DNA of 28,628 nt from a virus. The position numbers and the translations under genes are program-made. Shown here one piece after another: positions 603 through 28,628 of the stretch (within the stretch, counting starts at the first letter, position 1; each line of letters starts with the position of its first letter). The stretch covers positions 1 through 28,628 of IMG/VR virus record IMGVR_UViG_3300037089_000218; one strand, 5' to 3'. Below the pieces are notes generated by a model. It ran no database searches. It saw only the letters and a program-made list of their open reading frames with translations, and was not told the DNA's origin.

Positions 603-2018
603 TTAACTTGGACTCCAATTCATCGACCAAAAATCTACGATCATCAGGCGATTGAGCCCTGATGGGGAAGCTGTGTCGTCGTTCCCCATCATGAAAATAG
701 GGATCAGGGACGGAAAACCCGAAAGAGTTCCGGCTTGAAAGTTAAGCCCAACGGGTGTCGAATAATCAAATCCTACAGAGGCATCGACCCCTACAACAAG
801 AGGCCACGTCCCGTTCATCAGTGTCGCCGCGCCAGTAAAACCCGAAGAAGTTATAATCGATCCAGTACCCCACGGGCCAATTCCGCTTGTGTTAACTGTC
901 CAGTTGAGGGTGCCATAGCCGTTTGCCGATTGCGAGGCATTCGTAGGTGTTATGCTCATCGCTGGGAGGGGAGTTGTCAGAACAAAAGTTCCATCCAGCG
1001 TCACAGTAACTATCCCGCCCGCCGCAAAAGAAATGGTCAGCGTGTGCCACACACCCTGCGTCGGAGCAATGTTGGTTACAAGCGTTACTCCTTGAGTGTT
1101 GTTTCTCACCGAAGGCTCAGGATACGGATTTGTTACGACTTCTAGCGTGAAAAAAGAGTCGTTGATGCTTGGCGCAGTCGTGCTGGTGTCGTAGCGCACT
1201 CCGATAAAAACAGATGGGCGAGACACGCTAGAACCGATATAGTTGTCGATCTGATTCCCGGTCAACCCAACATACAGAACGGATTGAGCCATACTAAAAC
1301 TCGAAGAAAAAGATTCGGGTTCCACTGCTTCAAGTTTGAATATATAAGTCAGCGTTGCTCCCGGATAGTCCGCCAAAGGCCAAGTAAGCTGCGAAATTTC
1401 CGCGTTACTGAAACTCCCGCTACCCGCGAAAGTAAGCCATCCCGCCTCAGATACTACGGCGTTGTTGGCAAATGCATACTGGCCCAAGTGAGGAAATCCG
1501 CCCCCCATCTGACCGCCATAAATAGTCGTCACGCCCAGCAAAGCCCAACCCAACTGACCAATGCTAACAATTGGGATTGTGCCCCCGATATTGTTTGAAC
1601 TCATCGCCGCATGAAAATTGTCTACCAACTGGAATGCAGGAGGCGGTGCTGCTGGCGTCGGCAGAGGAATCTTTGCGATAGCTGCATCAATTAGGGGCTG
1701 AGCTACGCTCTTAACTGTCGCCACGTTTTGCGAGACGCCGCCCGGAGCGATGGGCATCAAACGATCTGTAGGAACACCGGAGCCCGGCGTGCCTGCATCA
1801 ACCAAGTCTGGCGACAATCCAAGGAACGGAGGCAGCTGTCCTGACTGAAAATTGTCGATCCCTGTGCTGGCCGTAGGGGGCCCGCCAAAATTGCGGACGT
1901 TGGGATTCACCGGCGCAGAATTTACGGGCTGCCAATTCTCAGGGAGTCCGGCTTCCTCTTGAATCGTCTGGGGTGGAGGAGGCGTTGCTGCTTTGGGTGT
2001 ATCTTTTTCGTCGGCCAT
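603..2018 (-). CDS. Tail appendage protein with lectin-like beta-sandwich
   Basis: A 471-aa protein. The first 130 or so residues are Pro/Ala/Asn-rich and probably extended (for example AATPPPPQTIQEE). From about residue 135 the sequence becomes beta-rich. It contains SVFIGVRYDTSTT, later WHTLTISFAAGGIVTVTLDG, and a final VDFWSMNW. The W-x-L-x-I-x-F ... V-x-V-x-L-D-G pattern is typical of concanavalin A/LamG-like carbohydrate-binding domains. The ATG shares its A with the TGA stop of the 1362-aa tail gene upstream (TGATG), so translation is probably coupled. I infer a receptor-binding or decoration role at the tail. The lectin assignment is by pattern only. Confidence 0.7.
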   Translation of the reverse strand: MADEKDTPKAATPPPPQTIQEEAGLPENWQPVNSAPVNPNVRNFGGPPTASTGIDNFQSGQLPPFLGLSPDLVDAGTPGSGVPTDRLMPIAPGGVSQNVATVKSVAQPLIDAAIAKIPLPTPAAPPPAFQLVDNFHAAMSSNNIGGTIPIVSIGQLGWALLGVTTIYGGQMGGGFPHLGQYAFANNAVVSEAGWLTFAGSGSFSNAEISQLTWPLADYPGATLTYIFKLEAVEPESFSSSFSMAQSVLYVGLTGNQIDNYIGSSVSRPSVFIGVRYDTSTTAPSINDSFFTLEVVTNPYPEPSVRNNTQGVTLVTNIAPTQGVWHTLTISFAAGGIVTVTLDGTFVLTTPLPAMSITPTNASQSANGYGTLNWTVNTSGIGPWGTGSIITSSGFTGAATLMNGTWPLVVGVDASVGFDYSTPVGLNFQAGTLSGFPSLIPIFMMGNDDTASPSGLNRLMIVDFWSMNWSPS

Positions 2019-5000
2019 CAGAACTCTACGAAAAGGCGGCCAAAAATTGTCATGTTATAAATCATATCTTGATTCGGGGTTTGCCCAAAATCGACCTGAA
2101 TCTGAAGGTGACGGCAACGCGCCAACTTTCCCGTAGACGCGAAGTAATACCGATTCGGAGAATAACTCTTCGGCGTGATCGTCGCACCATATAACGACGG
2201 AGGATCGAACTGCGGAATCCTTGCCATCGGAGTAAACGTGCCTGCGATCTCGTTCAGCAGGGTGCTGACTATGGGTTGATATGCAACACCCGACATATCC
2301 ATCTCAAGGAACTTCAGTACAGCCAACTGTCCGGGATGGGCCAGCATGATGCTTCCCATGATAAAGTTGGCATCGTACATCGTGCCAATAACAGAAGGTG
2401 AAGTTGAGGGTACAGTGACGCCGTTACTCAACATTGTCACTGCGCCGTTCCGAGCCAACAACCGCCCAGTTACCGCAGCATCGGTGTCCACAGAAATGGA
2501 CGTGAGCGCGAGTATGGTTCCCACGAAAACCGAACTGACTCCTAGAGTGGCAGAACTTCCGACTTGCCAGAACACATTAGTGGACTGCGCGCTGTCCGTC
2601 AGAACTATGGATGTGCCTGTGCCAGTTATCAAAGTTGTCGCCATTTGGAAGATCCAAAAAGCGTTGGGGTCGCCACCCCCGTCGAGTGTCAAAGTTCCTG
2701 TCGTTATGGTGAAGGTACCGCTGAGCGAACTGTACACGCCGGGTGCAGGGCTCGTGCCGCCCAACTCCGTCGGGATTGTCACCGCGCCGGGGTACGCCGC
2801 GGCCTGGAGGTACACCAAAGTCAAATCTGTTTGTGCTTGAACCGCAGCCGGGTTGTCAACATTCGTGGCCCCCGTCACCACGGGAGAACCAGTCACTGCG
2901 CTGCCCGGCGACAGACCCAAGTCACCGGTGACGGTTGTTGGACCAGAATTCGTAATCGTGGTACCGGCCAAAACCCCGTATGTGGATGTCGTCAAAAGGT
3001 TGATGGGCGAAGGAGTGACTACGGAGCCACCGTCCGTGAAAATACCGATATTGCGTTCCAAAATTTGTTTGCCGCCAGTCGTCGCACCCACGAGCAACTT
3101 CTTGATACCCGCAGAAACTTCCACGCTCTGAACCATCTGGCAACCATTCGTGATGTTTGCAAAAGGAGACCAAATCGGCTCAGGCCCGTTCGCACCACCC
3201 GGGATCTGAGTCGGGTTGCAGCGATACCAGCCTGTGCTGCCGTCTGCAACCATGATGCAGTTGTCTATGCCAGACTGTTGAACCGCGAGATAGATGTCGT
3301 TGGGGTTCATGACCGCAAACTTGTCGCCCAATGCGAATCCGAAGTTTGGCGCGTTCAAGGAAGGACTCAAGGACTTAACCTGTCCGTCCGAGCTGAAGAA
3401 GTAAATCTGGCCCATATAAACGTCCAAGGCGTTGTAGCTGAGCAAACCAATTCCCGGAGCCAGCGTCAGGGGGTAGAACGATGAAGTCAAGGGACCACCG
3501 GCAATAATCTCAACGCTATCCGTCAACATGACAATGAGGCCCTGCGAAGTCTTCACGACGCGCGTTACAGTCGCGAGATACGGAAACTCGTCGATGGGGT
3601 TGAATGCCGCGTTCGGATTGCCTGTGATGACGTCGGGACCGCCGCTCCAAATAACCGATGCGCCATCTGCGCCCCAAATGCGTTCGAAGTTGTAAACCAT
3701 GGGCAAGAACGTCGAAGGAGGCGGATCGTTCTCATCGTCAATCGGTGCCGGAATCAAGTTGTTCAAGCCGGGATAAATCGCAGTCGGCGTGTCCGGCAGA
3801 TAGTCGTTGAACGACCAAACGCCTGGCACCGTCGGCGACAGAGGGGGAGGATTCGGAATCTCGGTCAAGTAGAACATGTTGTCCGCGCCACCGCCATCCG
3901 CAGAGCGCCAGATGATGATCGTGTCAACCGCAGGATTCAAGGAGCCGATCCCTGAGATCGTATTCACGGCGCCGCTGTTCGAGCCAGTGATCGTGTACAC
4001 GGGGGATGCAGTTGAGATGTCGCCCAGTTCAGATCCTGTTGGAAGACCCAATCCTTTCGAGTACCCAGGAGGAGGCGTTGTGTTGTACGGATCGGTTAAG
4101 AGCCGCGATTCATACGAATAGGCGTAAACATAACCCTTCGTCCAACTCAAAGAATTCGTCAACGCGATACCATCGTTGTACCACGTGATCGCGTTGTCTA
4201 CAGTCTGCGCGCCCTTCGTGAGCCATGACGGGGCCGACATGCCCGACAAGCCAGACTCTAAAACGAATTCGATGTTCGCGTTACTATCGATGACTGCCGC
4301 AGAACCATAAGGCTGCGATATGCTGGGGGGCGCAAATCCGTCAATCGGCAAATACCAAATCGTGTTCGTTGTCCAAGCCATACTCTGGCCGACGCAGGTC
4401 CAAATAACAGAGCCGTCGTTTGTGACGCCGCCGTACAAAGTGTTCCAGTTTGCGGGTTCCGTTCCGGCTGAGATCCCAGTCGTGGTGCAGACTTGGAAGT
4501 TACCGTTCGTATCCACGATGACTGAGAATATTGAGGCGCCAGTGACCCACTGAGTGTAGTTGGTATCCGCAGTCCATGTTCCGTTGCCCAACATCGTCCA
4601 GCCCAACTGACCGTCGTATGTTTGAAACCCCGGAATTATGCCCCATGTCGGTGGTGTAGCGCCACTGCCGGTTGTGCCTGACGTAGTAGCAACTTGCAAA
4701 TAAACTGTTTGGCCCGTAGGAGGGGGAAGAACCAACGTTGGTTCTATGATTGCGCTGTTAGGATACTTCGGACGGATTCCGCTCGAAGGAATGTTATATA
4801 CAGCCTCAAGCGTGTTGGCTTTCCACGGCTGCACCATTGATGGTGTTGCGCCAACCTTACCGATGTTCTGCCATTTCGTATCGTCTCCGTCCCCGACGAA
4901 AGGACCGTCCTGCCCAGGAGCGAAAACCGCGTTAAAATTCGGACGAACGCTTCCCGAAGTTCGTGAAGTACTCTGCGACATAATGAAGATGCACATCGTG

Positions 5001-6106
5001 CCGGGATCGTAGATTGGCTGGCCCGCCTGATAAACAGTTGATCCCTGCCACTCAGTGATCGGGCCCTCATTCGTCCACGTCACGCCGCTCACGATGCCAT
5101 CAGGCGTTGTGCCCCCCGTCGTTTGATTCCAAGCCGGTTGACCGTTGGACGACAACCCATAATGCCCCGTAGGATTGGTACCGTCCGCGTTCACGGTATA
5201 GAGCTGTTGGATGTTTCCTTTCGCATCCAAGATGAGGCCCATGGTGCTGTACACCGAATTGGCCTGCCACACTACCGCAGACGCGCCACTCTCTGTAATG
5301 AGAACGTTGGGTTGTTTCAAGGGCGCGACAATACCCCACTGCCAAACCAATCCGTTGGGGCCGCCCGGCGTGTACACGCGCGTGTCAACTCCGTCGCCCA
5401 TATAGAGGACGCCATCGACCGCTGTGAAACTCGTTTGTCCCGCGCCCACCGATTTGGCAAAGAGCATTTGCGGGGCCACGCTCGCAGAAGGACTCTGCGT
5501 ATCGTACCAAACTGCGCCTGCGGTAAGGGCGGTTCCGGCATGAGTGTCCAGCGCGGCGTTGATGTTGTTCAAAACTAATGTCGTTCCAGTAGATGCGATG
5601 CAAGTAAAAGTGCCGTTGTTCTGGGATAGATCGAATTCCGCAACCAAAAAGATCAAACCCACGAATGCGCCATTGGGGAACTGCAAGGGGGCTGCCGCGC
5701 CGTCGGTGATCACGCCAGTGTATGTACCCGAGACTCCGGGATTCACCGAAGTGACTGCAGTCAACGCGAATGTCGGCGAATCGCCTGTATCGATAATAAC
5801 TTGAATCTGACCTAATGCCGTCTGGAAAGAGAACGCTCGATCCGGCGTCGTGGGATAGATCGCGCCTGAGAAGGGACTGAGACCGGGCCGACGCGCGAGC
5901 GTCAAAAGGTTCGTCAACTCGACGTTAGATCCTGCCCACAAAGCATCAGGGCGCCCACCGTAAAACCTACTTGTAGCGACATCGGAGGGGTCGTGAAGTA
6001 CCGAACGCTGGGTGTACAAACCAGTAAATTGCTTATCCATGAACAACGGCACGTAGCGCGGAGCCTTCTGGGGTTGCGCGCCCGCTGTCTCAAGTAAATT
6101 AGTCAT
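2018..6106 (-). CDS. Large tail protein carrying an inserted DUF3494 ice-binding-like domain
   Basis: A 1362-aa protein, the largest in the window. The body is beta-rich, with many repeats of Trp-x-x-x-x-x-Tyr strands (for example WKANTLEAVYNI, WTADTNYTQW), typical of podovirus-like tail hub or needle proteins. Residues 1035 to 1232 form a complete DUF3494 domain: YGVLAGTTITNSGPTTVTGDLG, NPAAVQAQTDL, PGVYSS, LTLDGGGDPNAFWIFQM, TNVFWQVGSSATLG, FVGTILALTSISV and GRLLARNGAVTMLSN. The domain interrupts a conserved tail segment: GGKQILERNIGIFTDGG lies before it, and MYDANFIMGSIMLAHPGQLA resumes after it. In DUF3494 proteins this fold is a beta-solenoid, ice-binding in some members and adhesive in others. 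The stop overlaps the next ATG. The start overlaps the GIY-YIG gene by 8 bases. Confidence 0.88.
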   Translation of the reverse strand: MTNLLETAGAQPQKAPRYVPLFMDKQFTGLYTQRSVLHDPSDVATSRFYGGRPDALWAGSNVELTNLLTLARRPGLSPFSGAIYPTTPDRAFSFQTALGQIQVIIDTGDSPTFALTAVTSVNPGVSGTYTGVITDGAAAPLQFPNGAFVGLIFLVAEFDLSQNNGTFTCIASTGTTLVLNNINAALDTHAGTALTAGAVWYDTQSPSASVAPQMLFAKSVGAGQTSFTAVDGVLYMGDGVDTRVYTPGGPNGLVWQWGIVAPLKQPNVLITESGASAVVWQANSVYSTMGLILDAKGNIQQLYTVNADGTNPTGHYGLSSNGQPAWNQTTGGTTPDGIVSGVTWTNEGPITEWQGSTVYQAGQPIYDPGTMCIFIMSQSTSRTSGSVRPNFNAVFAPGQDGPFVGDGDDTKWQNIGKVGATPSMVQPWKANTLEAVYNIPSSGIRPKYPNSAIIEPTLVLPPPTGQTVYLQVATTSGTTGSGATPPTWGIIPGFQTYDGQLGWTMLGNGTWTADTNYTQWVTGASIFSVIVDTNGNFQVCTTTGISAGTEPANWNTLYGGVTNDGSVIWTCVGQSMAWTTNTIWYLPIDGFAPPSISQPYGSAAVIDSNANIEFVLESGLSGMSAPSWLTKGAQTVDNAITWYNDGIALTNSLSWTKGYVYAYSYESRLLTDPYNTTPPPGYSKGLGLPTGSELGDISTASPVYTITGSNSGAVNTISGIGSLNPAVDTIIIWRSADGGGADNMFYLTEIPNPPPLSPTVPGVWSFNDYLPDTPTAIYPGLNNLIPAPIDDENDPPPSTFLPMVYNFERIWGADGASVIWSGGPDVITGNPNAAFNPIDEFPYLATVTRVVKTSQGLIVMLTDSVEIIAGGPLTSSFYPLTLAPGIGLLSYNALDVYMGQIYFFSSDGQVKSLSPSLNAPNFGFALGDKFAVMNPNDIYLAVQQSGIDNCIMVADGSTGWYRCNPTQIPGGANGPEPIWSPFANITNGCQMVQSVEVSAGIKKLLVGATTGGKQILERNIGIFTDGGSVVTPSPINLLTTSTYGVLAGTTITNSGPTTVTGDLGLSPGSAVTGSPVVTGATNVDNPAAVQAQTDLTLVYLQAAAYPGAVTIPTELGGTSPAPGVYSSLSGTFTITTGTLTLDGGGDPNAFWIFQMATTLITGTGTSIVLTDSAQSTNVFWQVGSSATLGVSSVFVGTILALTSISVDTDAAVTGRLLARNGAVTMLSNGVTVPSTSPSVIGTMYDANFIMGSIMLAHPGQLAVLKFLEMDMSGVAYQPIVSTLLNEIAGTFTPMARIPQFDPPSLYGATITPKSYSPNRYYFASTGKLARCRHLQIQVDFGQTPNQDMIYNMTIFGRLFVEF

Positions 6107-6722
6107 TGCTCACCGCACAAAGAGAACAAGTCGGCACAACTATTCCGCGGCCAATATGCCACTGTTTATGAGACGATGCCTTACCGCCGTTACTGCAACT
6201 CTCTTTAGTAGCGGGGTTCCCACGCAACTCCATTCTTCGGCGACCTGCTTGTGACTGATGTTCTCTTGTTCGCATACTTTCCAAGCGCCCATTGTCAACG
6301 CTCAATTGCCCGTTAATCTTCCCGCCAATCTTTCCGCCGATGCGCCCCCCAATCTTTCCGGCTTTAGACATCTGTCCCGAAATACTGGACGTCGCTCTTC
6401 CGCCAAGACTGGCAATATTGAATTCGAGAGGGTGATTTAACCACTGAACAAGGGGAGACATTAAGTTTCTTCCACCATCTTCTCTCCACGCCTCGTTTCG
6501 TCCGATTTCAAGGTTTTCAACGGCCTTAAGGTATATTGGGAAAAAATCAGGATCGTCATGCTCCACAACTCGGAGAGAAACTAACTCATGGGTTTCGTCA
6601 CTGAACCAATCGTGTCGATTACGATATCCGACAGTTCGTTCACGCAGCGTTCTGACTGTGGACCCAACCATTTCGATCTTCCCTATTTTCAAATTCTTCA
6701 CGCCGTAAATTGTTCCGATCAC
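6099..6722 (-). CDS. GIY-YIG homing endonuclease, free-standing
   Basis: A 207-aa protein. The N-terminal 60 residues match the GIY-YIG pattern in relaxed form (IYGVKNLKIGKIEMVGSTVRTLRER...), with the conserved Gly-Ser-Thr and an Arg helix. A glutamate-containing segment (NLEIGRNEAWREDGG) follows. From about residue 115 there are Gly-Lys/Arg-Ile-Gly-Gly repeats of the NUMOD3 DNA-binding type (GKIGGRIGGKIGG). The C-terminus has HIGRGIVVPTCSLC, a possible small zinc or DNA-contact motif. The start is a GTG overlapping the stop of the upstream 240-aa gene, and the end overlaps the start of the large tail gene by 8 bases. It is thus wedged exactly between two structural genes, as mobile endonuclease genes usually are. 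No intron flanks it. Confidence 0.85.
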   Translation of the reverse strand: MIGTIYGVKNLKIGKIEMVGSTVRTLRERTVGYRNRHDWFSDETHELVSLRVVEHDDPDFFPIYLKAVENLEIGRNEAWREDGGRNLMSPLVQWLNHPLEFNIASLGGRATSSISGQMSKAGKIGGRIGGKIGGKINGQLSVDNGRLESMRTREHQSQAGRRRMELRGNPATKESCSNGGKASSHKQWHIGRGIVVPTCSLCAVSND

Positions 6723-7441
6723 TGACCACGCGCCTGATTGCCCTGCTGAGTACGAAGTTGCTGAGCCTGAGCCTGACTGCCGCGAATGTTGAACTGAGCC
6801 AAGACTGAGTTGCGCTGCATTTCGTTCAAGCCCTCGGCCTTAGCCAGAAGAGCAGCCACGCCGCGCATGCGATACCGCTGCGCTTCCTGAGCATTGTCCA
6901 CCGCCTCGTATGCTTCGGCGGCGAAGAGATTGTTGAAGATATCTTTGTACTGCGTAGGGATAGGCCAAGGACCGGTCAGATCGTCCATGTCAGGAATCAA
7001 AGTCTGGTACGTAAGCGTTGCTTTGTAGGCTTGGTCCGGGATTGACATGAATCGCAAAGTCACGTTCGTGCCGTACTCCACCTGATGGACTGAAACAGCT
7101 TTGGGTTCGGCTGGTTTCGAAACCGAGACACCCAAAGCAACGGTGTTGTACACATCCTTCACATCGAAGGCGTACTTGCCGTCCGCAGTCGTCAGCGTGA
7201 CTTTTTCCAAGAAACTGAAGTCGGTAAGAGCAACCACATAGTCTTGCTGTGAAGGGACGAGGGTGAGAAGAGTTGACTCCTCACGATTCCAACCCCACGT
7301 GAGTGGCGCGTTCGTGATCGTCGAGATAATCATATTCGCTACTGAGATCGCGGGTTCGTTGGCGATTCCCGCAGTCAGTGGAGAGTACTCAATGAACGTC
7401 TGTGCCCAGTTAATCGTTTGCTGAAGAGTGTATGATGCCAT
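6719..7441 (-). CDS. Head-tail adaptor-like structural protein, second paralog
   Basis: A 240-aa protein starting at an ATG just below the stop of the 369-aa gene. Its first 80 residues (TLQQTINWAQTFIEY, EPAISVANMIISTI, WGWNREES, SQQDYVV) align with the N-terminus of the 369-aa protein upstream (TLQQIVNVALAF, EPALTIANDVMNAI, KWNEL, SWQQDYAV). The two are therefore tandem paralogs. A helical segment (YKDIFNNLFAAEAYEAVDNAQEAQRY) sits near residues 165-195, and the C-terminal 30 residues are Gln-rich. Position next to the large tail protein and this architecture suggest a podovirus-type tail adaptor or tail-tubular component. No exact family can be named from the sequence alone. Confidence 0.75.
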   Translation of the reverse strand: MASYTLQQTINWAQTFIEYSPLTAGIANEPAISVANMIISTITNAPLTWGWNREESTLLTLVPSQQDYVVALTDFSFLEKVTLTTADGKYAFDVKDVYNTVALGVSVSKPAEPKAVSVHQVEYGTNVTLRFMSIPDQAYKATLTYQTLIPDMDDLTGPWPIPTQYKDIFNNLFAAEAYEAVDNAQEAQRYRMRGVAALLAKAEGLNEMQRNSVLAQFNIRGSQAQAQQLRTQQGNQARGQ

Positions 7442-9640: not shown

Positions 9641-9931
9641 TTACACGTTAGAACTTGAAGTTGCGGCAGGGAAAACCAACGTAAAAGCCTGATTGATAAT
9701 CGCGTTAACTGCCAAAACAGATGAAAGCGTTATGGTAACTAACCCGTTACCCGAAACAGCCACGCCGGATACGCCCGAACTGAGCGAATACGCCAGTGCT
9801 GACGGGAAACTCCCGAGAAAAGCTAGAGCAAACGGAGCCTTTGTAAGGTCTATCGTTGCGGAGTTAGAAATTCCGTCTCCTACCAAATATAGACTTACTG
9901 AACTGAGAGTTGCGTTTCCGTAAATCTGCAT
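9641..9931 (-). CDS. Small Ser/Leu/Val-rich virion-type protein, 96 aa
   Basis: A 96-aa protein with ribosome site AAGGAGATTTAAA before its ATG. The start lies inside the 3' end of the endonuclease VII-like gene (37-base overlap), which suggests that the endonuclease inserted just ahead of it. The sequence is beta-prone and of low charge (for example SVSLYLVGDGISNSATIDL and SGNGLVTITLSSVLAVN), typical of small phage structural proteins. No known family is recognised. Confidence 0.65.
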   Translation of the reverse strand: MQIYGNATLSSVSLYLVGDGISNSATIDLTKAPFALAFLGSFPSALAYSLSSGVSGVAVSGNGLVTITLSSVLAVNAIINQAFTLVFPAATSSSNV

Positions 9932-10380
9932 TTTAAATCTCCTTGGGTGTATTCCAAATACTCTGCCCCTAATCTAAGAACGATTGGGCTATCTATAGAT
10001 GAGCCGAGCATCCGATTGCAATTATCGCACAAAAAACCCCGAACACATTTTCCGCATGAAATCTTACCCGAACAACACTTGTGGTCATGATCTACACACA
10101 AACGTTTCTGTGGAGTTGGCGGTTTACGACAAATTGCACAAACCCCGTTTTGTTTTTCGAGTATCACATTATACTGTTCAATTGTTAGATGATACTTAGT
10201 TTTAAGTGTCCAGCCAAGTAATCCGAGTTCGGCACGCTTTTTATTTCTGGACTTTTCCTTAAGTTTGCGATCCTGCTCTCGATGCTCTCGGGCCCATTTA
10301 GTGGTATATTGTGAAGACTCGCCTGGACGTAATTGGCGATATTTTCGCATATACGCAGCTTTCTCCTCTTTAGTTCTCAC
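9895..10380 (-). CDS. Endonuclease VII-like homing endonuclease
   Basis: A 161-aa protein. The first 50 residues are basic helices (KAAYMRKYRQLRPGESSQY, WAREHREQDRKLKEKSRN). The catalytic zinc module follows: YNVILEKQNGVCAICRKP, then VDHDHKCCSGKI, CVRGFLCDNCN and a final LGSSIDSPIVLRLGAEYL helix. This is the recombination endonuclease VII layout, with CxxC, DHDH and CxxC. The long frame begins with a GTG inside the upstream stop (GAGTGA). An ATG at codon 11 with GAGGAG 11 bases upstream is an alternative start. Both ends overlap structural genes, so it is free-standing. Confidence 0.88.
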   Translation of the reverse strand: MRTKEEKAAYMRKYRQLRPGESSQYTTKWAREHREQDRKLKEKSRNKKRAELGLLGWTLKTKYHLTIEQYNVILEKQNGVCAICRKPPTPQKRLCVDHDHKCCSGKISCGKCVRGFLCDNCNRMLGSSIDSPIVLRLGAEYLEYTQGDLKCRFTETQLSVQ

Positions 10381-14645: not shown

Positions 14646-15813
14646 CTTTGTATTACAACCCTTTCGGGAAGGTCGAGTCATTTCTGCTCGACACTCATGG
14701 TTGTTATTCCCATGAGAGTAGACTATCGCATCGCCTTGCGGCGTTCTCTCGCTTAGTCGTTCACGGTGCCTTTCGGCTTCCGCCCTGTTGGCGTTTCAGC
14801 TTCCAAGTCAATCAGAGAGAATTCTCACTCGCTTTCGCGAATGACCCCCGCTCTTACGCCGCTAGCGCAAGAGTTGTTGAGGCACACCAGCCACCAATCG
14901 TTGCAGTCGGGTCGAACGAAGACGGAGGGGCGTCAGTCACGACTTTACAGTCGATTGTACGCCAGTCGCCTTCATCCAGATCGGTGTCGCCCGGAACTTC
15001 GAGCCACACGCCGATGTACGCGTAGTTACCGCAAACGTAGGTACGGAAAGCGATGGAGCCCGTACCGCTATAGTTCGGGGTCTGCGTGACAAACGGAGTC
15101 TGACGGAACACAACGTTCGTGCCCGGCAGTTCGATCTCTTTGGTCTGGTCGCTGCCAGCCATTTCGTCGAACTTGCTCATGTTTGCGTACTTCCACAGAT
15201 CGACGATGGAGTTATTAACTGTCGTCGCGTTGTAGATGTCGCCCAACACGTTCGGGCTGATCGCGCCCATGAACTTGCCTTTCTTGCAGGGCAGAACGTC
15301 ATTGCTGACGAGCTGCTGCTTCATCTCGCGGATCGTTGCGAGATCAAGGGTAAACGGAGCCGCCAGCAAACCACTCTGGTTGACCGTTGAATCCACTGCC
15401 GCGGCGGAATCCAACACCGTGCTGTACAGTTCGGAAATGCTCTGTCCAGCCTGGTATCCGAGTTCCACTGCGCTATTTCCAACCAACTCATCGATTGCCG
15501 AAGCAATGGCGAACGAGCTGAAGTTGGAGTAGTTGTTCCACTCGCCGACTTGCGCGGGGGAACTGATCTGGGTGATCTCCATCGGAGAACCCACAACGCC
15601 GTCGGCAGACTGAGACGTATCGCCTGCGAGGGTGTTGTATTGGAAGAACGTGCGGTTGATGCCCATGTGAAGCGGCTGCACGCGTCGTTCTGCCATTGTT
15701 ACGAAAGCATCGGTTTCGCCCTTCAGGTTCGGGATCAATTCTTTGTCAAACAGAATTGCCTGAGCCGTCAGAACGTTTCCGACGTTAGATGCTGAGGGTG
15801 TCGGTCCACTCAT
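14339..15813 (-). CDS. Major capsid protein, gene split into three exons by two group I introns
   Basis: The capsid protein resembles the N4-gp56 / HK97-fold family: FDKELIPNLKGETDAFVTMA, then ELGYQAGQSISELYSTVLDS, TIREMKQQLVSNDVLPC and MGAISPNVLGDIYNA. The unspliced frame (15813-14854, 319 aa) ends in nine non-homologous-looking residues after Gly-Gly-Trp-Cys. Removing two introns joins exon 1 (15813-14884), exon 2 (14645-14569) and exon 3 (14354-14339) into 1023 nt, or 340 residues. The new C-terminus continues DKFHQTVTLPPAIGAG and ends RVRFIDSVPAIQ. AGAGGAC precedes the ATG. The gene follows the scaffold-like gene, as expected. Intron 1 could also end 6 bases later, removing Asp-Lys. Confidence 0.88.
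14355..14568 (-). ncRNA. Group I intron 2 of the capsid gene
   Basis: A 214-nt intron with no ORF. P7 pairs GACUA (14465-14461) with UAGUC (14430-14426) and P3 pairs UUCUCUC (14528-14522) with GAGAGAA (14457-14451). P8 is CGCCC-CUCG-GGGCG (14450-14437). A P9-type hairpin CUCUCAUGG / CUAUGAGAG follows, then GAUCGG-CAGAAAUGA-CCGAUC (14397-14377) and a final CCGCG/CGCGG hairpin before ACAAACAG. The P1 helix is poorer than in intron 1: GCAG can pair with the exon end CUGU, with a mismatch beyond. Most of the core is identical to intron 1. Confidence 0.88.
14646..14883 (-). ncRNA. Group I intron 1 of the capsid gene
   Basis: A 238-nt intron with no ORF. P1 is an 8-bp helix of exon GCUGGUGU (14891-14884) with internal guide GCGCUAGC (14868-14861), placing the required U-G pair at the splice site. 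P3 is UUCUCUC (14821-14815) with GAGAGAA (14750-14744). P7 is GACUA (14758-14754) with UAGUC (14725-14721). P8 is CGCC-GCAA-GGCG (14743-14732). Toward the 3' end are CUCAUGG / CCAUGAG, then GUCGAG-CAGAAAUGA-CUCGAC (14692-14672), then CCC-GAAA-GGG, ending ACAAAG. A GCC-GAAA-GGC hairpin lies in the P4-P6 region. Confidence 0.9.
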
Positions 15814-15845
15814 GGTGTCCTCTACTTACGAAACTGACCGTGAAC

Positions 15846-17249
15846 TTATTTCTTTGCCAACAGAGCGTTGATTTTGTCGTAGAACTTTGGATCTAATTTG
15901 TGTCTACGCTTCATCTCGTCTGACGACATCGTTCTCAGTTCTTTGATCAAATCCGTTCGGGTCTGTGCCGCGGACTTAGGAACAGGTGCGACTCCCGTGA
16001 GAGTCGTGCCTGGAATAAGGCCTGCGTTGACCCCAGGACGCTTCGCCGGTGCCGCCGCTGCCGGATTAGTGGCTGCGACTGCTGGCGCTGCGGGTGCCGC
16101 AGGAACAGCCACTGCCGGAGTTGAGGCCGGTGCGACTGGCGCTGCTGGCGCCGCTGCTGGTACCGCCGTAGCGGTTGCAACGGGTTGAACAGCCGGTGCG
16201 GGATTGGCCGCTGGCGGTTCAGATACTGGTGCTGCTGGGGCGTACCGTTGAATGACGGGCGCCAATTGTGGTTCGAGGTTCCCTAATGCAATTTCAAGAT
16301 TTTCTGCCGTCCACTTGAGGTTGTTGTCCACAAGGAACTTCGCCAACATGTTGTTGTTGGCCTCACAGTTGTTGTAGTTGCTTGCGTTGACCACGTTGTT
16401 CCGCAAGAATATGAAACTCTGTTTCTCTTCCTCGGCGAGTCTGACAGCCTCTCTTGCGGCTGCGGACTCCTTCTGTGTTGCTGACGCCGCGATCTTCGTA
16501 ACCGCTGCCGTGCGGATCTTGGGGTCTTCGGACGTGAGGTTCACCGCCGCTTCGTCAATCTCCGCTTGAGTAATCTCAACGGGGGCTGGGTCGCGGAAAA
16601 CCGGCTTCTGCTTCTTCAGCCGATCAATCGCCAGAACTGCTTGCCGATACGATTCCTGCTTCTTGGCTTCCAACTCTTCAGCCGAAGATGCTTCGAGGTG
16701 AGTCTTGTTTCCAATCGGATTGCCGTCGGCATCGCGCACTTGGTAGTCGTAGACGTGCCGCGTCGGGGTCTTGGCCGCTTCAGCTGCCTGAAGAGCTTTG
16801 ACTGCCGCTTCCGCCGCTACCCGAGACGCCTCGGCTTCGGCTGCAACACGCGCTACCTCTGCGTTCGCTGCCACCAGTGCCGCCGCTTCTTCTTCGGGAG
16901 TCGGTGTCGCGATATTTGCTATCGTGATTACTCCCGGTTCTGCCAATACTGTGCCCGCTGCGGCCTCTGCTTCTGCCGCGACACGAGCTGCCTCGGAATC
17001 TGCTGCCGCTTGTTCGGCAATCAGGTCTGCTGCCTTCGCACCCTTGCGCGCGATCTCCGCGGCAATGAGTTCGTCGATCTTGACCTTCCCTTCCGGGTGG
17101 GCGAGAATGTCCTTCATCTGCTGCCCACTCATCTTCTTGACGTCTGTGTACGTCAACTCAGGTATCGCGGGGGTCTTGTACTGCACTGGCGGCACTGCTG
17201 GATCGAGAACGCCAGAAATCATCTTCACGAGTTCAGGTGATACTGTCAT
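15846..17249 (-). CDS. Scaffold-like capsid assembly protein
   Basis: A 467-aa protein encoded between the portal-side genes and the capsid gene, with ribosome site AAAGGAGTATCAAA. The composition is dominated by Ala, Glu and Val. Residues 70-150 are a long Ala/Glu coiled-coil candidate (EQAAADSEAARVAAEAEAAA). A more conserved-looking middle (HVYDYQVRDADGNPIGNKTH, then ELEAKKQESYRQAVLAIDRL) follows. Residues 345-415 are Ala/Pro/Val low-complexity. A short basic C-terminal helix (TRTDLIKELRTMSSDEMKRR) could contact the coat, as scaffold C-termini do. Position and composition fit an internal scaffold. No protease motif is seen. Confidence 0.7.
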   Translation of the reverse strand: MTVSPELVKMISGVLDPAVPPVQYKTPAIPELTYTDVKKMSGQQMKDILAHPEGKVKIDELIAAEIARKGAKAADLIAEQAAADSEAARVAAEAEAAAGTVLAEPGVITIANIATPTPEEEAAALVAANAEVARVAAEAEASRVAAEAAVKALQAAEAAKTPTRHVYDYQVRDADGNPIGNKTHLEASSAEELEAKKQESYRQAVLAIDRLKKQKPVFRDPAPVEITQAEIDEAAVNLTSEDPKIRTAAVTKIAASATQKESAAAREAVRLAEEEKQSFIFLRNNVVNASNYNNCEANNNMLAKFLVDNNLKWTAENLEIALGNLEPQLAPVIQRYAPAAPVSEPPAANPAPAVQPVATATAVPAAAPAAPVAPASTPAVAVPAAPAAPAVAATNPAAAAPAKRPGVNAGLIPGTTLTGVAPVPKSAAQTRTDLIKELRTMSSDEMKRRHKLDPKFYDKINALLAKK

Positions 17250-17649: not shown

Positions 17650-19770
17650 TTAGATTGCTTGCGTCGAACCGAACCCTGTGCCGCCGGGCTCGCCCTGAAC
17701 TTCTTCGGGCGTAGTGGCCTGCTCGATAGACTGACGGAGGACTTCGTTCCCGGCCTTGCCGAGTTGCTTCGAATCTTCCATCGTCTCTTCGTGCTCGAAC
17801 TGCGCCTGTTGAGACTGGCCCTTTGCCTGCAACTGCATTTGCATGAGGGCTGCCTTGGTGTTGGACTTCGCCGTTGCCATTTGCTCCGGCGTCATCTTCT
17901 TCAAGAAAGCCTGAGAGAACTTCCAGCCTGCTGCGTCCGCGAAGGCCTTGAAGATCGCGACTGGATCGAAAATGTATCCGGCTGCGGCCAAGTCCTGCGT
18001 GAAGGTTGGGTTGTTGAAAATCTGCAACATGATCGGCAGGAACTGCGCCATTTCCTTCTTAGCGCCCAGCTTCGTGCCAGCCAGAACCTCGTATTCCATC
18101 TTCGCGTTGCGAAGCTTGAACTGGTCCAGCTTGTAAGTCTTCGCCATTACCTGACCGGCGATCTTCCGCATAACAGAAGCCGGGAGGCAATCGTTGTTCA
18201 GTTCGTCCATGATGTACAGCCACGGAATGAAAATCTGCCGAACGAAACGGCCTGTCGGGCCGTCGAGTCGCGATGCGTTAGCTTGAACGACCGCAGCCGC
18301 TCCGGTGCCGGAGCGCATACCTGTTGCCTTGTTACCCATACCGCCCGCGCCCTGCACAACCTGTTCGTTGGCGCCGGAAGTCGCAGCACCCGCACTCTGG
18401 GCCTGCTGAATGAATGTCCATGCTTCGCCGGGCACAGGAGGCATTGTCAGGAACTTGAAAGCCTTGTCCACGTCCTCATCAACGTCGATGATGCCGCCCT
18501 GCTTCCAGCGAATATTCTGCGTGGGTGTGTTGAAGCCTTTCTTACGAATCGCAGTCGGCTGCAAACCATAAGCGAGCAGGTCGAGGGCGATGTTCGTGAT
18601 GCCCTGTTCAACCAACTGATCACTTCCGATTAACTGGCCCAGGCCCTGTCCGTAGAAAGCGTCTGGGATGTTGCGCCAGTTCGCGCTCAGGAATGGGGTC
18701 TTGCCGTACGGGTTGGCTTCGTTGCGAATGAGAATGTTGTGGCCGTTAAAGCACAACACAACGATGACCTTCTCGTTGTCCCACCGTTCGAGAATTTCGA
18801 GAGCGTTCCCGGTCGGGTCCGCGGTTGTCTTGTAACTTCGCGGAACGGCGTGCTGCAAATAGCCACGCATGCCCTCAGGCAGCGTCAATGCGATGTTGTC
18901 CACGCCCGTCGAAGGGTTGGACAAGAAAAGCGCCCGCAACTCTGCCTCAGTCGGGATGTCGTATCCCTCGATGCCGCGCAGGTGATCCAAATCAGTCCAT
19001 GTTGCGTAGTCGCGATAGATGACGTAGTGCGCGCGGCGGATGTCGCCGTAGCGGCACGAGGGGTCAACCATCACGCATCGGATATCGCAATACTTGATCC
19101 AAGGATGCGAAACAAGGTCGTCATCGAGAACAGTCTTGAACTCGTCTGACTCCGGCGTCTCGCGCTGCTGCGGGCCCGACGGCATATCAATCGTCAGGGG
19201 ATCGTCGATGCGAACGTAACGCTTCGTTTTCTTGGTGTACTCGACGTATCCCCACTTGGCGATACACGTCCCTAAGAGGCCCATCTGATCCAGCATGCGC
19301 TCTGTTTCTTCTTCGAACTTCATGTCCCAAAGCTGTTCGGAGAATATCGCAGTCTTGACCTTTACTGTGTCGTCATCTGTGTTAGGGAGGGGACGCAGAA
19401 GGAACGGAGGATCTTCGTAGAAAATTCCGCCCATGATCTTGGGGACGATGGAACTAAGATGGTTGCTGACCGTGAACTTGGGAACGTTGGCCTGGGCCAC
19501 GTTGCCACCATCGAAGGCACTGGCTGACGCCGGTGACTGATAGATCACGTCCGAGAGAGTCCAGCCTGATGCCCACTGGTTCACGTTGATATACGTGGCG
19601 CAGGTATTGGCGTCATCAAGAACGAGTTTCAAGGCCGCTGCATCCTTGAACAACATCGTTCCTGTATCTTCGTCCCTCTTCATGTCCTCTGTGTGGATTT
19701 CGCCGACAGGGTTCAACACCCGCTCTTGGAGGGTTGCGCGTGCTGCGTTCAGTTGCTCTTCGTTATACAC
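17650..19770 (-). CDS. Portal protein
   Basis: A 706-aa portal of the large podovirus/P22-like size class. It forms the dodecameric DNA gate at one capsid vertex and is the docking site for the terminase. Typical segments are VSNHLSSIVPKIMGGIFYED near residue 103, DQMGLLGTCIAKWGYVEY, then a hallmark stretch NPYGKTPFLSANWRNIPDAF followed by YGQGLGQLIGSDQLVEQG. The C-terminal 70 residues are Gln/Lys-rich helices (MQMQLQAKGQSQQAQFEHEE), probably the barrel. The start is a GTG that shares its first G with the terminase TAG stop (TAGTG), with AGGGGG upstream, so the two genes are translationally coupled. Confidence 0.88.
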   Translation of the reverse strand: MYNEEQLNAARATLQERVLNPVGEIHTEDMKRDEDTGTMLFKDAAALKLVLDDANTCATYINVNQWASGWTLSDVIYQSPASASAFDGGNVAQANVPKFTVSNHLSSIVPKIMGGIFYEDPPFLLRPLPNTDDDTVKVKTAIFSEQLWDMKFEEETERMLDQMGLLGTCIAKWGYVEYTKKTKRYVRIDDPLTIDMPSGPQQRETPESDEFKTVLDDDLVSHPWIKYCDIRCVMVDPSCRYGDIRRAHYVIYRDYATWTDLDHLRGIEGYDIPTEAELRALFLSNPSTGVDNIALTLPEGMRGYLQHAVPRSYKTTADPTGNALEILERWDNEKVIVVLCFNGHNILIRNEANPYGKTPFLSANWRNIPDAFYGQGLGQLIGSDQLVEQGITNIALDLLAYGLQPTAIRKKGFNTPTQNIRWKQGGIIDVDEDVDKAFKFLTMPPVPGEAWTFIQQAQSAGAATSGANEQVVQGAGGMGNKATGMRSGTGAAAVVQANASRLDGPTGRFVRQIFIPWLYIMDELNNDCLPASVMRKIAGQVMAKTYKLDQFKLRNAKMEYEVLAGTKLGAKKEMAQFLPIMLQIFNNPTFTQDLAAAGYIFDPVAIFKAFADAAGWKFSQAFLKKMTPEQMATAKSNTKAALMQMQLQAKGQSQQAQFEHEETMEDSKQLGKAGNEVLRQSIEQATTPEEVQGEPGGTGFGSTQAI

Positions 19771-21869
19771 TACGCTTTCCCCCTATTGAGCCTGATCCCC
19801 GGAATGTTGAACGGGGTGTTTCGTGATTCTTTCTGTTCGGCTGTTTGAACTGCGGACCACGCGAGGCTCGATGCGCTCTGGCCGCCGCCGCCGAAAATTG
19901 CGTTCTTCATGTGTTCCCGCATAGCTTTATCTTGCGCTGCCTTCATCTGGGCCGCCATCTCGGGGCTTGGGAGGGTCGTCGGAAGGAACTGATGCAGGTA
20001 CCCAATCGCATCCGGGATGTCGTCCTTGCGAGCTTTCGTGCTCTTCTCGCCCTTGTATTGTACGAACTGTTTGAAGGTCTCTTCGATCCAGTCGCCGCCA
20101 ACGAAATACAGAAGATCATCGTTCAGCAAAATCTCAAGCTGTTTGATGCGATTCTTCTTGGCGCCCTTGGATTGATCTGGCTTCATCATGAGGGGTTGAA
20201 ACGAATACTCATGAACCATGCAGCGATACGCGATCTCCCTTTTCAGGATGTCGCCCCCTGTAATCTCTTCCAGCATAACTTTCTTGGGGTTCCATTTCTT
20301 CGCGAACATCACGATCTGGAAAGCCAGTTCGGAATACTTCCACTTCCCGAACTTCACCTCAAGAATAATGAAGCCCCACTTACCGTCGGTCGGGCGCTTG
20401 TAGGTTCGGCCCGCAACCAGCACAGACCAATCGCTCCACTTGTTGTCCGAGTAGGCCCAGTCGCCGGTGACGAAGATGTCGCCTTCCGCGCGTGGATCAA
20501 CCCGATACAGGCCTGAGTACTCGTGCTTCCTCAACACGTCTATGTCAAACGTGATCCTGAAAGGGTCTACAACTTCAGCATCGGTTGGGTCGTTCAGCTT
20601 CTGGTTTCGGAACTGGCGCTCTTCATCCTCGGTCGTCCCGAGTTCGGCCTTCAATTCGTTGAAGCCTTCGCCGATCTTCTCGGGGAACAGAAGATCAACC
20701 ATGTCCTCTTTAAGGTCATGGATGTTGACTTTCTCGAAGCCAACTTTGACTGTCCAAACGCCCTTGCAATAGTATTTCAGAGGATTGGTTTCGGTAGCGG
20801 CGCCAATCAAAGTGCCGTAGTAATCTGGAACCTTACCGCTGAAGTAGCGGGTTCCAACAATGTCTGTGAATCCGTGACCACCCACAATGAACTTCGAAGA
20901 ATCGATCTTGGTCTTGAGGGATTTGCGCGCGTCCTCGTTTTCCGAGTTCGAGTTGGTCACAACGTCGTCCATCTTACGGATATCGGCGTGCTTACCTGAA
21001 ATACCTTGCTTGGTCGAGCGGACCCAGAGAGACGCGTCCTTCTGGTGATTGATCGCCGCTGGACACCACATGTCTTCGTTCGACGTACCCTTGACGCCGG
21101 TCAGAATGTATTCTGGGAACAGGAGATGAAAATCCGTAGGATCTTCATTGCCCTGAAGGTTGAACCGTTTCTTAACCTCACCCAAGAAGTCGTCGGCCAA
21201 TTCTTCCGTACCTGACAGAATCGAGATCATGCAATCTGGCGCATTCAAGAACCACTGTACGCAATCCGCGCAATTGATAACCGTCTTGTAGAAACCGCGA
21301 GGAAACAGAAGCAGCATGCGCTTCTCGCGAGGAAAACGGTGAATCGCTTCACGCATATCCTCAAGCGTATAGCCTTCGTAATACACCCCATCAAAATCTT
21401 TCTTCACGAACATGTCGCAGACAGGCCCGTGCACCCTTTGAATCAGGGAGCGAAGCCGCAACAGTTCATAGCAAAGCCAGAACAAGTCCTTGCGTGCCTT
21501 GTCGCGGAGTTCAAGCCACTCGTCAAAAGTGATGCGTCGGCCCAGTATCTTGGCCGAGCAGGGCTTCAGTACGCGCTTCTTTTTCTTTTTCTTGTCTTCC
21601 TCTTCCTCGTCGCGCTCCTGCTTAATGCCGAGAAAGATCATCGCCAACTGCGTGCACGAGCGAACTTCGGACCTGTATCGATAGCGGATCTCAGGCTGTC
21701 CGTCCTTGAGCAGCACCCGTTCATCGTCCATGGATGCGGCACGCGCGAGTACGTCCTGCACATCCTCCGCGGGCTCAAGTTCAACTTTTTCCGTCAATGC
21801 ACGAGTCGCCTTCTTGATGGACCACGCTTTCTTGTTCCATTCCTTCTTCTGCTCAGGTGTATACGCCAT
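19770..21869 (-). CDS. terL: Terminase large subunit
   Basis: The packaging motor ATPase and nuclease, 699 aa. I choose the ATG at 21869 because GGAGAAAGGAT precedes it; the frame extends 10 codons further. The ATPase domain has a diverged Walker A (LLLFPRGFYKTV, about residues 187-197), followed by SILSGTEELADDFL. ADIRKMDDVVT is a plausible Walker B. The C-terminal RNase H-like nuclease has VTGDWAYSDNKWSDWSVL, KVMLEEITGGDIL and the late acidic KDDIPDAIGYLHQFL. The N-terminus carries an odd charged tract, EEEEDKKKKKKR near residue 90. No separate small terminase gene is recognised upstream. Confidence 0.93.
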   Translation of the reverse strand: MAYTPEQKKEWNKKAWSIKKATRALTEKVELEPAEDVQDVLARAASMDDERVLLKDGQPEIRYRYRSEVRSCTQLAMIFLGIKQERDEEEEDKKKKKKRVLKPCSAKILGRRITFDEWLELRDKARKDLFWLCYELLRLRSLIQRVHGPVCDMFVKKDFDGVYYEGYTLEDMREAIHRFPREKRMLLLFPRGFYKTVINCADCVQWFLNAPDCMISILSGTEELADDFLGEVKKRFNLQGNEDPTDFHLLFPEYILTGVKGTSNEDMWCPAAINHQKDASLWVRSTKQGISGKHADIRKMDDVVTNSNSENEDARKSLKTKIDSSKFIVGGHGFTDIVGTRYFSGKVPDYYGTLIGAATETNPLKYYCKGVWTVKVGFEKVNIHDLKEDMVDLLFPEKIGEGFNELKAELGTTEDEERQFRNQKLNDPTDAEVVDPFRITFDIDVLRKHEYSGLYRVDPRAEGDIFVTGDWAYSDNKWSDWSVLVAGRTYKRPTDGKWGFIILEVKFGKWKYSELAFQIVMFAKKWNPKKVMLEEITGGDILKREIAYRCMVHEYSFQPLMMKPDQSKGAKKNRIKQLEILLNDDLLYFVGGDWIEETFKQFVQYKGEKSTKARKDDIPDAIGYLHQFLPTTLPSPEMAAQMKAAQDKAMREHMKNAIFGGGGQSASSLAWSAVQTAEQKESRNTPFNIPGIRLNRGKA

Positions 21870-21928
21870 ATCCTTTCTCCATTGATTGTGCTGCAACATC
21901 TATTGTACTGCGGTGGCGCGTGCTGCAA

Positions 21929-24393: not shown

Positions 24394-25176
24394 TTATTTA
24401 ACTCCGGGCGAAATAGCCCCTGACGCGTCTTCTGGATGAGACGGCGTTCCACGCCCGCCCCCGCCACCACCGCCACCACCTGAACCGTCTCCCTTACCGC
24501 CTGATCCACCCGCCCCCGGCCCGTCGCCGCTCTTAACGTCCGCGCTCTTCGCGTCTGACGCTCCGCTTGTCGCGCCGGAATTGATGGTGATGTTTATAGG
24601 AGCTGCGCCCTTCGGCTCTTTACCCTTACCGCCCTTGCCGGATTTGGAACCTGTTGACGTTTCCGTACTCGAACTTCCCGAAATGGTTATTGTCGTGGTG
24701 CCGCCCGTTGCCGCCCCACCTGTTGATGTCGATGCGCCGCCAGTTGCCGCGCCGCCTGTTCCTGCGCCGCCAATTCCGCTTCCTACGCCGCCTGTAGATG
24801 CCCCACCGGGACTTGATCCGCCTGTCTCTGTGGATGTGTGAGTCGGTGAGTTCCCTGTTCCTGCATCTTTATCTTCTCCTGTTGCGGGGGCTCCACCGGC
24901 CAACGATGCTACTTTATCGTGGATGCCCGGCGAAACTTTCTCTTCCAAGGCTTCGGGATCTTTACCCTCGTCCTTCAAACCCTTCTCCATCTTCTCGGGA
25001 TCGAGATGATCCTGTAAACTGTCGTGAATGCCATCGAGATTGCCGACAGCGTGCTCGACATCATGATCTGGGCCGCCCTCATGCTCGTGTTTTATGGCAG
25101 CACTCCCGTCATCAAAATGAGTAATGTGAGTCGATTTGAAGCCGTGACCCGCGTGGGCTTGTAGTTTTTCCGCCAT
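24394..25176 (-). CDS. His-rich protein, long paralog with Gly/Thr-rich tail
   Basis: A 260-aa protein with GGAG before its ATG; the start lies inside the last 65 bases of the endonuclease VII-like gene. Residues 1-60 match the short paralog (HAGHGFKSTHITHFDDGS, then HEHEGGPDHDVEHA, LDGIHDSLQDHL). An acidic helix follows (PEKMEKGLKDEGKDPEALEE). From about residue 105 to 245 it is Gly/Thr/Ser-rich, with repeats such as GGAATGGAST and a poly-Gly run near the end. The tail is likely disordered. Its low-complexity DNA may be prone to copy-number change. Confidence 0.7.
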   Translation of the reverse strand: MAEKLQAHAGHGFKSTHITHFDDGSAAIKHEHEGGPDHDVEHAVGNLDGIHDSLQDHLDPEKMEKGLKDEGKDPEALEEKVSPGIHDKVASLAGGAPATGEDKDAGTGNSPTHTSTETGGSSPGGASTGGVGSGIGGAGTGGAATGGASTSTGGAATGGTTTITISGSSSTETSTGSKSGKGGKGKEPKGAAPINITINSGATSGASDAKSADVKSGDGPGAGGSGGKGDGSGGGGGGGGGRGTPSHPEDASGAISPGVK

Positions 25177-25591
25177 CTAAATCTCCGTGTTTCTTTAAAT
25201 ACAGAATTGACTTCTCTAAAATATCGATGCTGTCGTGAGCGCCACCCAAAACCCAATTACAAAGTCTACAAAGCAACTCACGGTTCTTTCCTGTCTTATG
25301 GTCGTGATCCACATACGGGCTCTTTAGAAGAAGGGAGCATATAGCACATCTGCCGCCTTGTGCCCTAAGCATCTTGTCAAAATCTTCTTGAGAAATTCCA
25401 TATTTTCTAAGTCTATGTCTTGCTGCGGTCTTCGCCGGATTTAGATGGTATTTTCTCCTGTTGCGAGCATTCACTTTCTCTTTATTACGACGCTCGTAAC
25501 TTCGACGGAGTTCCGCTGCTTTCTCGGGGTGATTCAAACGCCATCGACGACTGGCGGCCCTACGCGATTCAAGATTCTTTTCTTTTTGCAT
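25112..25591 (-). CDS. Endonuclease VII-like homing endonuclease
   Basis: A protein of about 159 aa. The ATG at 25591 follows GGAGAGAACAGGACA; the longer frame runs through a hairpin and is not chosen. The N-terminal 60 residues are basic with N-H/K-P-E/x-K repeats (RRWRLNHPEKAAELRRSYER, RKYHLNPAKTAAR). The nuclease core is FDKMLRAQGGRCAICSLLL, YVDHDHKTGKNRELLCRLCN and LGGAHDSIDILEKSILYL, with CxxC, DHDH and CxxC in the endonuclease VII order. It overlaps the following His-rich gene by 65 bases and is free-standing. Confidence 0.88.
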   Translation of the reverse strand: MQKEKNLESRRAASRRWRLNHPEKAAELRRSYERRNKEKVNARNRRKYHLNPAKTAARHRLRKYGISQEDFDKMLRAQGGRCAICSLLLKSPYVDHDHKTGKNRELLCRLCNWVLGGAHDSIDILEKSILYLKKHGDLDGGKTTSPRGSRLQIDSHYSF

Positions 25592-25620
25592 TGTCCTGTT
25601 CTCTCCACTATAGAGATGAC

Positions 25621-25643
25621 GGGGAGTGATAGTGGCACTCCCC
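25621..25643 (-). promoter_or_regulatory. CCWNNAN-loop hairpin upstream of an endonuclease VII-like gene
   Basis: Minus-strand 8-bp stem GGGGAGTG / CACTCCCC closing loop CCACTAT, followed by GTCATC without a U-tract. It ends 29 nt before the chosen start. The palindrome TGTAGCTACA lies a few bases upstream, as it also does above the HNH gene hairpin near 9163. Confidence 0.65.
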
Positions 25644-25646
25644 ATC

Positions 25647-27992: not shown

Positions 27993-28628
27993 TTAGATCT
28001 TATAAAGCTGTTCAACGTATTCCGGGGCGTCGTAAGGACAAACCACGGAAGCATTCTGTTTAACAATCGCGCAATCCTGACAACCTTCCCAACCCGTCGC
28101 GGATGGGCGACAATGCGCCCGACATCGATAACCACACTGGGGTCGAAATATTATGCGACGATTCGTACTATCTTGGGGTAGTATGCCCTGGGCGGCAAGG
28201 ACACCGCCAACCCATCTATCCTCAATAGGATCTCCGTCCCACGTGGCTCGTGCTACAAACTCTGCCGCACGATGACTCAGCGTGTAACCGAATCCACTGC
28301 AATACAAACCGTTAGAGTGCCCAACATAATCCCCCAACTCTTTAAGGAGATTGTGCGGCCTGACCAAAGTATCGTCGTCAGTCTTCAAAATGAAATCGTA
28401 GTCCCGCTCCGCGGCCCACGCGAACATGGCCTGAACCTTGAGGGGAAGAAATCGGTACTCGTCAGACACCGGCAACTGTACAATGTCCGGGGAGCCGGAG
28501 AATGCGCCATCACCCCAAAAGAACTTGACGTCGATCCCTGCGGCTTCCGCGTCTGGAACCCATGTGCAGCGCTGAGCGTTGGCGCGCTCGATGAACTTGT
28601 GGCATGTGGTCACGCCGATAAGGAATCT
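27993..28628 (-). CDS. Partial GT31-like glycosyltransferase
   Basis: At least 211 residues, open to the right edge; the reading RFLIGVTTCHKFIERANAQR shows that the gene begins outside the window and that the GTG at 28613 is not the true start. The key motif is DFILKTDDDTLVRPHNLL, whose Asp-Asp-Asp binds metal and sugar nucleotide in galactosyltransferase-type (GT31) enzymes. Downstream are YCSGFGYTLSHRAAEFVARA and DRWVGGVLAAQGI, matching the acceptor-side region of that family. The C-terminus is Cys-rich (CGYRCRAHC, WEGCQDCA). In phages such enzymes modify virion proteins, host surface or DNA; which one cannot be told here. Confidence 0.85.
   Translation of the reverse strand, partial: RFLIGVTTCHKFIERANAQRCTWVPDAEAAGIDVKFFWGDGAFSGSPDIVQLPVSDEYRFLPLKVQAMFAWAAERDYDFILKTDDDTLVRPHNLLKELGDYVGHSNGLYCSGFGYTLSHRAAEFVARATWDGDPIEDRWVGGVLAAQGILPQDSTNRRIIFRPQCGYRCRAHCRPSATGWEGCQDCAIVKQNASVVCPYDAPEYVEQLYKI

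Follow-up and report, generated by a model that had tools for sequence, protein, structure and literature searches.

Related phages have acquired a DUF3494 domain, the fold of ice-binding proteins, at least twice, at four sites of their predicted tail nozzle and from different DUF3494 lineages. The window, that is the whole stretch of DNA analysed here, is one metagenomic contig, a virus record 28,628 bases long, and it derives from a soil-type bacterial virus with a short tail. We read its inserted segment as a modular adhesive domain, probably present in six flexibly tethered copies round the tail nozzle and binding ice or another extracellular surface, a reading to which we give a probability of roughly 0.6.

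Insertion of a DUF3494 domain into a tail protein

The earlier note had placed a DUF3494-like domain at positions 2411-3004 of the minus strand, residues 1035-1232 of a 1362-aa phage tail protein. These coordinates proved exact, and all five of the motifs quoted for the domain were present in the open reading frame. The features of this gene are as follows.

2018..6106 (-): tail nozzle protein as modelled, 1362 aa, with an N-terminal platform, a beta-propeller, a large inserted beta-rich repeat region and a C-terminal platform
3014..3079 (-): N-terminal linker of the insert and the preceding propeller-exit segment, residues 1010-1031 (model residues 241-262), pLDDT below 50
2405..3004 (-): inserted DUF3494 (PF11999) domain, residues 1035-1234 by the analysis-specific profile; the Pfam match, residues 1045-1231, corresponds to 2414-2974
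2384..2401 (-): C-terminal linker of the insert, SPSVIG, residues 1236-1241 (model residues 467-472), pLDDT below 50
2018..2395 (-): C-terminal platform segment after the insert, starting YDANFIMGSIMLAHPGQ, with relatives at 48 viral loci and aligned with Tunturi_3

The profile search strongly supported the DUF3494 assignment. PF11999 (Ice_binding/DUF3494) matched residues 1045-1231 over its full model (1-208) with an E value of 3.3e-51 and a score of 174.3 bits (compare with the Pfam curated cut-off of 28.7). At the DNA level the same family gave a single match in the window, at 2414-2974 (-) with an E value of 5.5e-55, and no match in 14 control genomes. When the PDB was searched with phmmer, 25 sequences were retrieved, nearly all named ice-binding or antifreeze proteins, and all of them aligned to the insert region, the best being 6eio (EfcIBP, E 4.6e-41).

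We then modelled residues 770-1362 with AlphaFold2. The domain block, whose pLDDT was about 89-98, is predicted to form a discontinuous beta-solenoid with a long helix, as in PF11999 members, and it superposed on solved ice-binding proteins in Foldseek comparisons, with a TM score on target length of 0.95 (rmsd 1.1 Å) for AnpIBP 7bwy and of 0.88 (1.2 Å) for EfcIBP 6eio. As the linkers on both flanks were of low confidence, the domain is probably free-standing. It thus shares with the DUF3494 ice-binding proteins EfcIBP (6eio) and AnpIBP (7bwx) the full-length profile, the solenoid with its long helix and the B-face residues; in contrast to them, it is spliced into a phage structural protein instead of being secreted, and its ice-binding capacity is putative.

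A whole-protein scan of viral contigs with the 1362-aa ORF (P0001) returned nothing, and relatives were therefore sought with separate alignments of the domain and of its flanks. Scanning with the C-terminal platform segment led to 48 viral loci. About 40 nozzle proteins of the set have no DUF3494 and run on without a break at the insertion site of the window, the equivalent of ILERNIGIFTDGG being directly joined to YDAxFxMGSI in the insert-less homologs. In the same way, gp19 of phage Tunturi_3 reads LLNRDLASSEDNGTQYPANAVMGSM without interruption where the window reads ILERNIGIFTDGG-[insert]-IGTMYDANFIMGSI. The segment is thus inserted and not intrinsic to the fold, as had been proposed, and its place is the loop that leads from the last strand of the beta-propeller to the C-terminal part of the platform.

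The window being a lone metagenomic contig, a bacterial DUF3494 gene might have been mis-joined to a phage gene during assembly. To all practical purposes this is excluded by two further viral contigs, IMGVR 3300014501_000002 and 3300050133_000049 (L003 and L004), which come from other data sets, judging by their names, and which carry the same insert at an identical junction in an intact reading frame. Their domains are 78-79% identical to that of the window, and the whole nozzle proteins are 61-63% identical over their full length. Synonymous divergence between L003 and L004, with a dN/dS of about 0.04, also argues against an artefact, as does the fact that the insert and the remainder of its gene are close in GC content. 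The DUF3494 domain is under purifying selection; between L003 and L004 its dN/dS is 0.043, compared with 0.06-0.08 for the flanks.

The carrier protein and its genomic setting

Searching the PDB sequences with the nozzle family profile gave no match, nozzle chains included, and at the profile level the nozzle could not be aligned significantly with SU10 gp17. The fold of the carrier was modelled via L017, an insert-less homolog of 1167 aa (42-row alignment, AlphaFold2 pLDDT 82.5, pTM 0.70). This model matched the nozzle proteins of Pa223 (Z 21.2), SU10 (20.8), VP1 (20.4), crAss001 (19.8), P22 (18.3) and T7 (15-16), with rmsd values mostly of 3-4 Å. Its best 30 structural matches (Z 21.2-14.4) all came from short-tailed phages, as tail or virion entries, and non-phage beta-propellers ranked below the nozzles, at Z 13.5 and lower. 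On the strength of these matches the carrier, a phage tail protein in the earlier note, is specified by modelling as a podovirus tail nozzle of the SU10/P22/T7 type.

The surrounding genes belong to a podovirus-type structural module, listed below.

6719..7441 (-): SU10-type adaptor protein (PF24175 SU10_adaptor, E 3.3e-6), the attachment partner of the nozzle in SU10 (PMC9509320)
14854..15813 (-): major head protein (phrog_1357, E 4.3e-7)
17650..19770 (-): SU10-type portal protein (PF23899, E 3.7e-20; phrog_1216, 2e-20)
19770..21899 (-): terminase large subunit (PF17289, phrog_38), with its best annotated relative in Tunturi_3 (tblastn)

The window thus resembles SU10, P22 and T7 in the modelled fold of its nozzle (compare with SU10 gp17, P22 gp10 and T7 gp12), and SU10 in its portal and adaptor; it differs from all three in bearing DUF3494 on a nozzle with no detectable sequence match to the PDB nozzle chains. 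Instead of DUF3494, the SU10 nozzle has four Ig-like domains, between blades 2 and 3 (PMC9509320). The nozzle of SU10 is a hexamer attached to the adaptor, and the edge of propeller blade 1 is the dock for the short tail fibres (PMC9509320). Because nozzles with this fold are hexameric, that of SU10 among them, we infer six nozzle copies, and hence six domain copies per virion, for the virus of the window.

By both terminase and tail protein (tblastn), the nearest isolate is Tunturi_3, a podovirus of Tunturiibacter (Acidobacteriota) which comes from Finnish tundra soil and has a tail of about 21 nm (PMC11924767). Its gp19 (PP885686) is a homologous nozzle with 32% identity in the matched stretches (tblastn) which, unlike the window nozzle, lacks the DUF3494 insert; it is annotated as 'head decoration protein'. 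Residues about 240-720 of the window nozzle (3900-5400 (-)) contain repeats of the form W..T.Y..G..V.D.NGN.Q..T..G.SG...P.W....G..T.DG.V.W...G, one of which (residues 531-572) is matched by PHROG 20658 'head decoration', and this repeat match may be the source of the gp19 label. Pfam recognised no other domain in five long nozzle relatives that lack the insert.

Some other genes of the window can be mentioned. Two separate recombination endonuclease VII genes (PF02945) lie at 9895-10380 (-) and 25112-25645 (-) of this one 28.6-kb fragment. Between adaptor and nozzle, a 207-aa ORF (6099-6722 (-)) overlaps the start of the nozzle gene and contains a GGRIGGKIGGKINGQ repeat; it had no match in a Pfam scan and may, by resemblance only, be a mobile endonuclease. 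At the edge of the fragment is a galactosyltransferase-like gene (27993-28613 (-), PF01762, E 4.9e-13).

Four insertion sites and the occurrence of DUF3494 in viruses

When the DUF3494-bearing nozzles were mapped by sequence on the L017 model, the domain was found at four sites, all of them inter-strand loops.

Site A, L017 model residues 1027-1033: L011 and L013, one loop before site B, between LLVG and ILER
Site B, L017 model residues 1039-1048: the site of the window
Site C, L017 model residues 975-978: L093, between the strands preceding GTGWYRLNP
Site D, L017 model residues about 79-87: L025/L026, near the N-terminus, after RRPG

Domains of sites A and B fell near cellular DUF3494 sequences in the domain tree, and those of sites C and D in a separate, exclusively viral clade. 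A single clade of all the inserted domains was rejected (p-AU 4.9e-41). Nor did the eight insert-bearing rows of the nozzle tree form one clade (p-AU 1.8e-71), and the presence of the insert there required four changes. Neither a single clade of both site-A domains (p 0.47) nor one of the A and B nozzles (p 0.066) was rejected, so sites A and B may, as far as the trees go, be one acquisition whose position shifted later. That both sites lie near the position of the SU10 fibre dock is only a suggestion, given the non-significant profile alignment to SU10 gp17.

A pattern-based scan with phage domains found about 45 distinct viral contigs with DUF3494; such counts are lower bounds and not a census. 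Their carriers comprise nozzles, an adaptor-like protein (L097) whose gene lies next to that of a nozzle, a 2288-aa protein (L075), small proteins with phage-like flanks and others that start with a fibronectin-III-like sequence (weak Pfam match). By eye most of these proteins have no obvious signal peptide, the exceptions being L084 and L089, possibly host-type proteins. In several contigs there are two or three copies. It seems that the domain serves virus particles as a sticky, reusable attachment. The domain is also optional or dispensable, since related contigs of 97-117 kb had no PF11999 match.

Every DUF3494-bearing phage that we found is metagenomic: three DUF3494 queries gave no match among 50,697 annotated phage records, and a PHROGs search with the 1362-aa ORF (P0001) returned no DUF3494 family. 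Three Arctic viral contigs with PF11999 were read as carrying auxiliary genes for host cryoprotection (PMC11515562). In the available part of that report these genes are not described as virion parts, whereas the window domain lies inside a virion protein and would therefore act on the particle. No PF11999 match was obtained for S-SKS1, which that report names as having homologs. In the literature that we found, which left most subscription journals outside its coverage, none named DUF3494 together with phage.

Among genome contigs, a scan with a narrow alignment gave no match and one with a broader alignment found 488. Domains 48-61% identical to the phage ones (L110-L189) are common in mesophilic soil Actinobacteria, which calls into question ice as the sole ligand of the family; they also occur in Parcubacteria and Bathyarchaeota MAGs.

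B-face and possible function of the domain

In AnpIBP the ice-binding site lies on the B-face, where the changes S153Y and T156Y cut activity to 17% (PMC7277481). Aligned to AnpIBP, the window reads TTITNS, SAVT, GAVTML, TSISVD, SSATLG and TTLITG at the mapped B-face positions; the equivalents of S153 and T156 are S and T, and the outward columns 1, 2 and 4 are T, S, A or G with the exception of one I. In the clade of the window, the B-face columns were more conserved than the other T/S/A/G columns (0.81 compared with 0.66, p 0.012), and the same held in the second viral clade (p 0.006). S153 and T156 were also present in 41 of 41 cellular DUF3494 sequences, many from mesophilic Streptomyces and relatives with a similar face, meaning that an intact B-face does not single out ice. 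T, S and A predominate in the window at the B-face column compared with hyperactive ice-binding proteins; if the domain binds ice, EfcIBP is thus a better guide than those proteins.

Adhesion would be the best supported general function. Each virion would display six flexibly tethered DUF3494 copies, arranged round the tail and outside its channel, and the flat B-face of each would be an adhesive patch for an extracellular surface, either ice in freezing soil, a polysaccharide or a particle surface, which would keep virions where their hosts live. Ice is a plausible but unproven ligand and, although we put it at less than even odds, the leading single one, because it is the ligand demonstrated for the fold in the literature found and because Tunturi_3, the closest isolated phage, is from tundra soil. 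Most of the remaining probability goes to particle surfaces and to polysaccharide of the host or of the soil. That phage particles bind ice, the nozzle ring holding virions at ice in freezing soil or limiting ice damage, we propose only tentatively; in the literature found, ice binding is not described for any virion.

A more specific role would be that of an accessory adsorption domain recognising a polysaccharide or protein on an Acidobacteriota-type host. The domain sits on the tail nozzle, which comes near the host during infection, the blade 1 edge of the SU10 propeller docks short tail fibres, and Tunturiibacter is the host of the nearest isolate. Rapid diversification is usual in receptor-binding parts, however, and the domains of the window, L003 and L004 have remained 78-79% identical, with a dN/dS below that of the flanks; DUF3494 is also found in non-nozzle proteins, one of them adaptor-like. 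We thus consider receptor binding unlikely. Less probable again is a domain without any outside ligand that would stabilise the nozzle or space its neighbours. Extra beta domains are frequent on virion proteins, as with the four Ig-like domains of the SU10 nozzle, and many relatives do without the insert, but the low-confidence linkers on either side suggest a free domain, a fixed structural contact is hard to reconcile with four different sites, and the B-face columns are more conserved than comparable ones.

Ig-like virion domains of the Hoc, BACON and PKD types represent the same idea, adhesive modules being reused on various virion proteins (PMC13370021), with a different fold; DUF3494 is not named in the phage-module literature that we found. 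The ice-binding fold joins a short list of add-on adhesive modules on phage particles, and it was acquired repeatedly at several positions within one tail protein. The view of viral PF11999 genes as host-protecting auxiliary genes is questioned, since the phages described here build the domain into the virion. One small soluble domain makes two matters directly testable, virion ice binding and another ligand for the DUF3494 proteins of mesophiles.

Finally, phages with a nozzle DUF3494 (in G007, an adaptor-like gene) often encode one or two more DUF3494 proteins. These extra loci are at 5706-6275 in G001 (L008, 383 aa), 99050-99607 in G003, 91663-93260 in G005 (two), 15606-16157 in G006 and 75126-75716 in G007. 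In L008 the stretches on either side of the domain, LDLLQVVDEGGDMLLNVTYKGVV and YDIFDIIGQGDSPIYHLDYLGVAYY, resemble each other, as though the domain had been spliced into a repeat protein.
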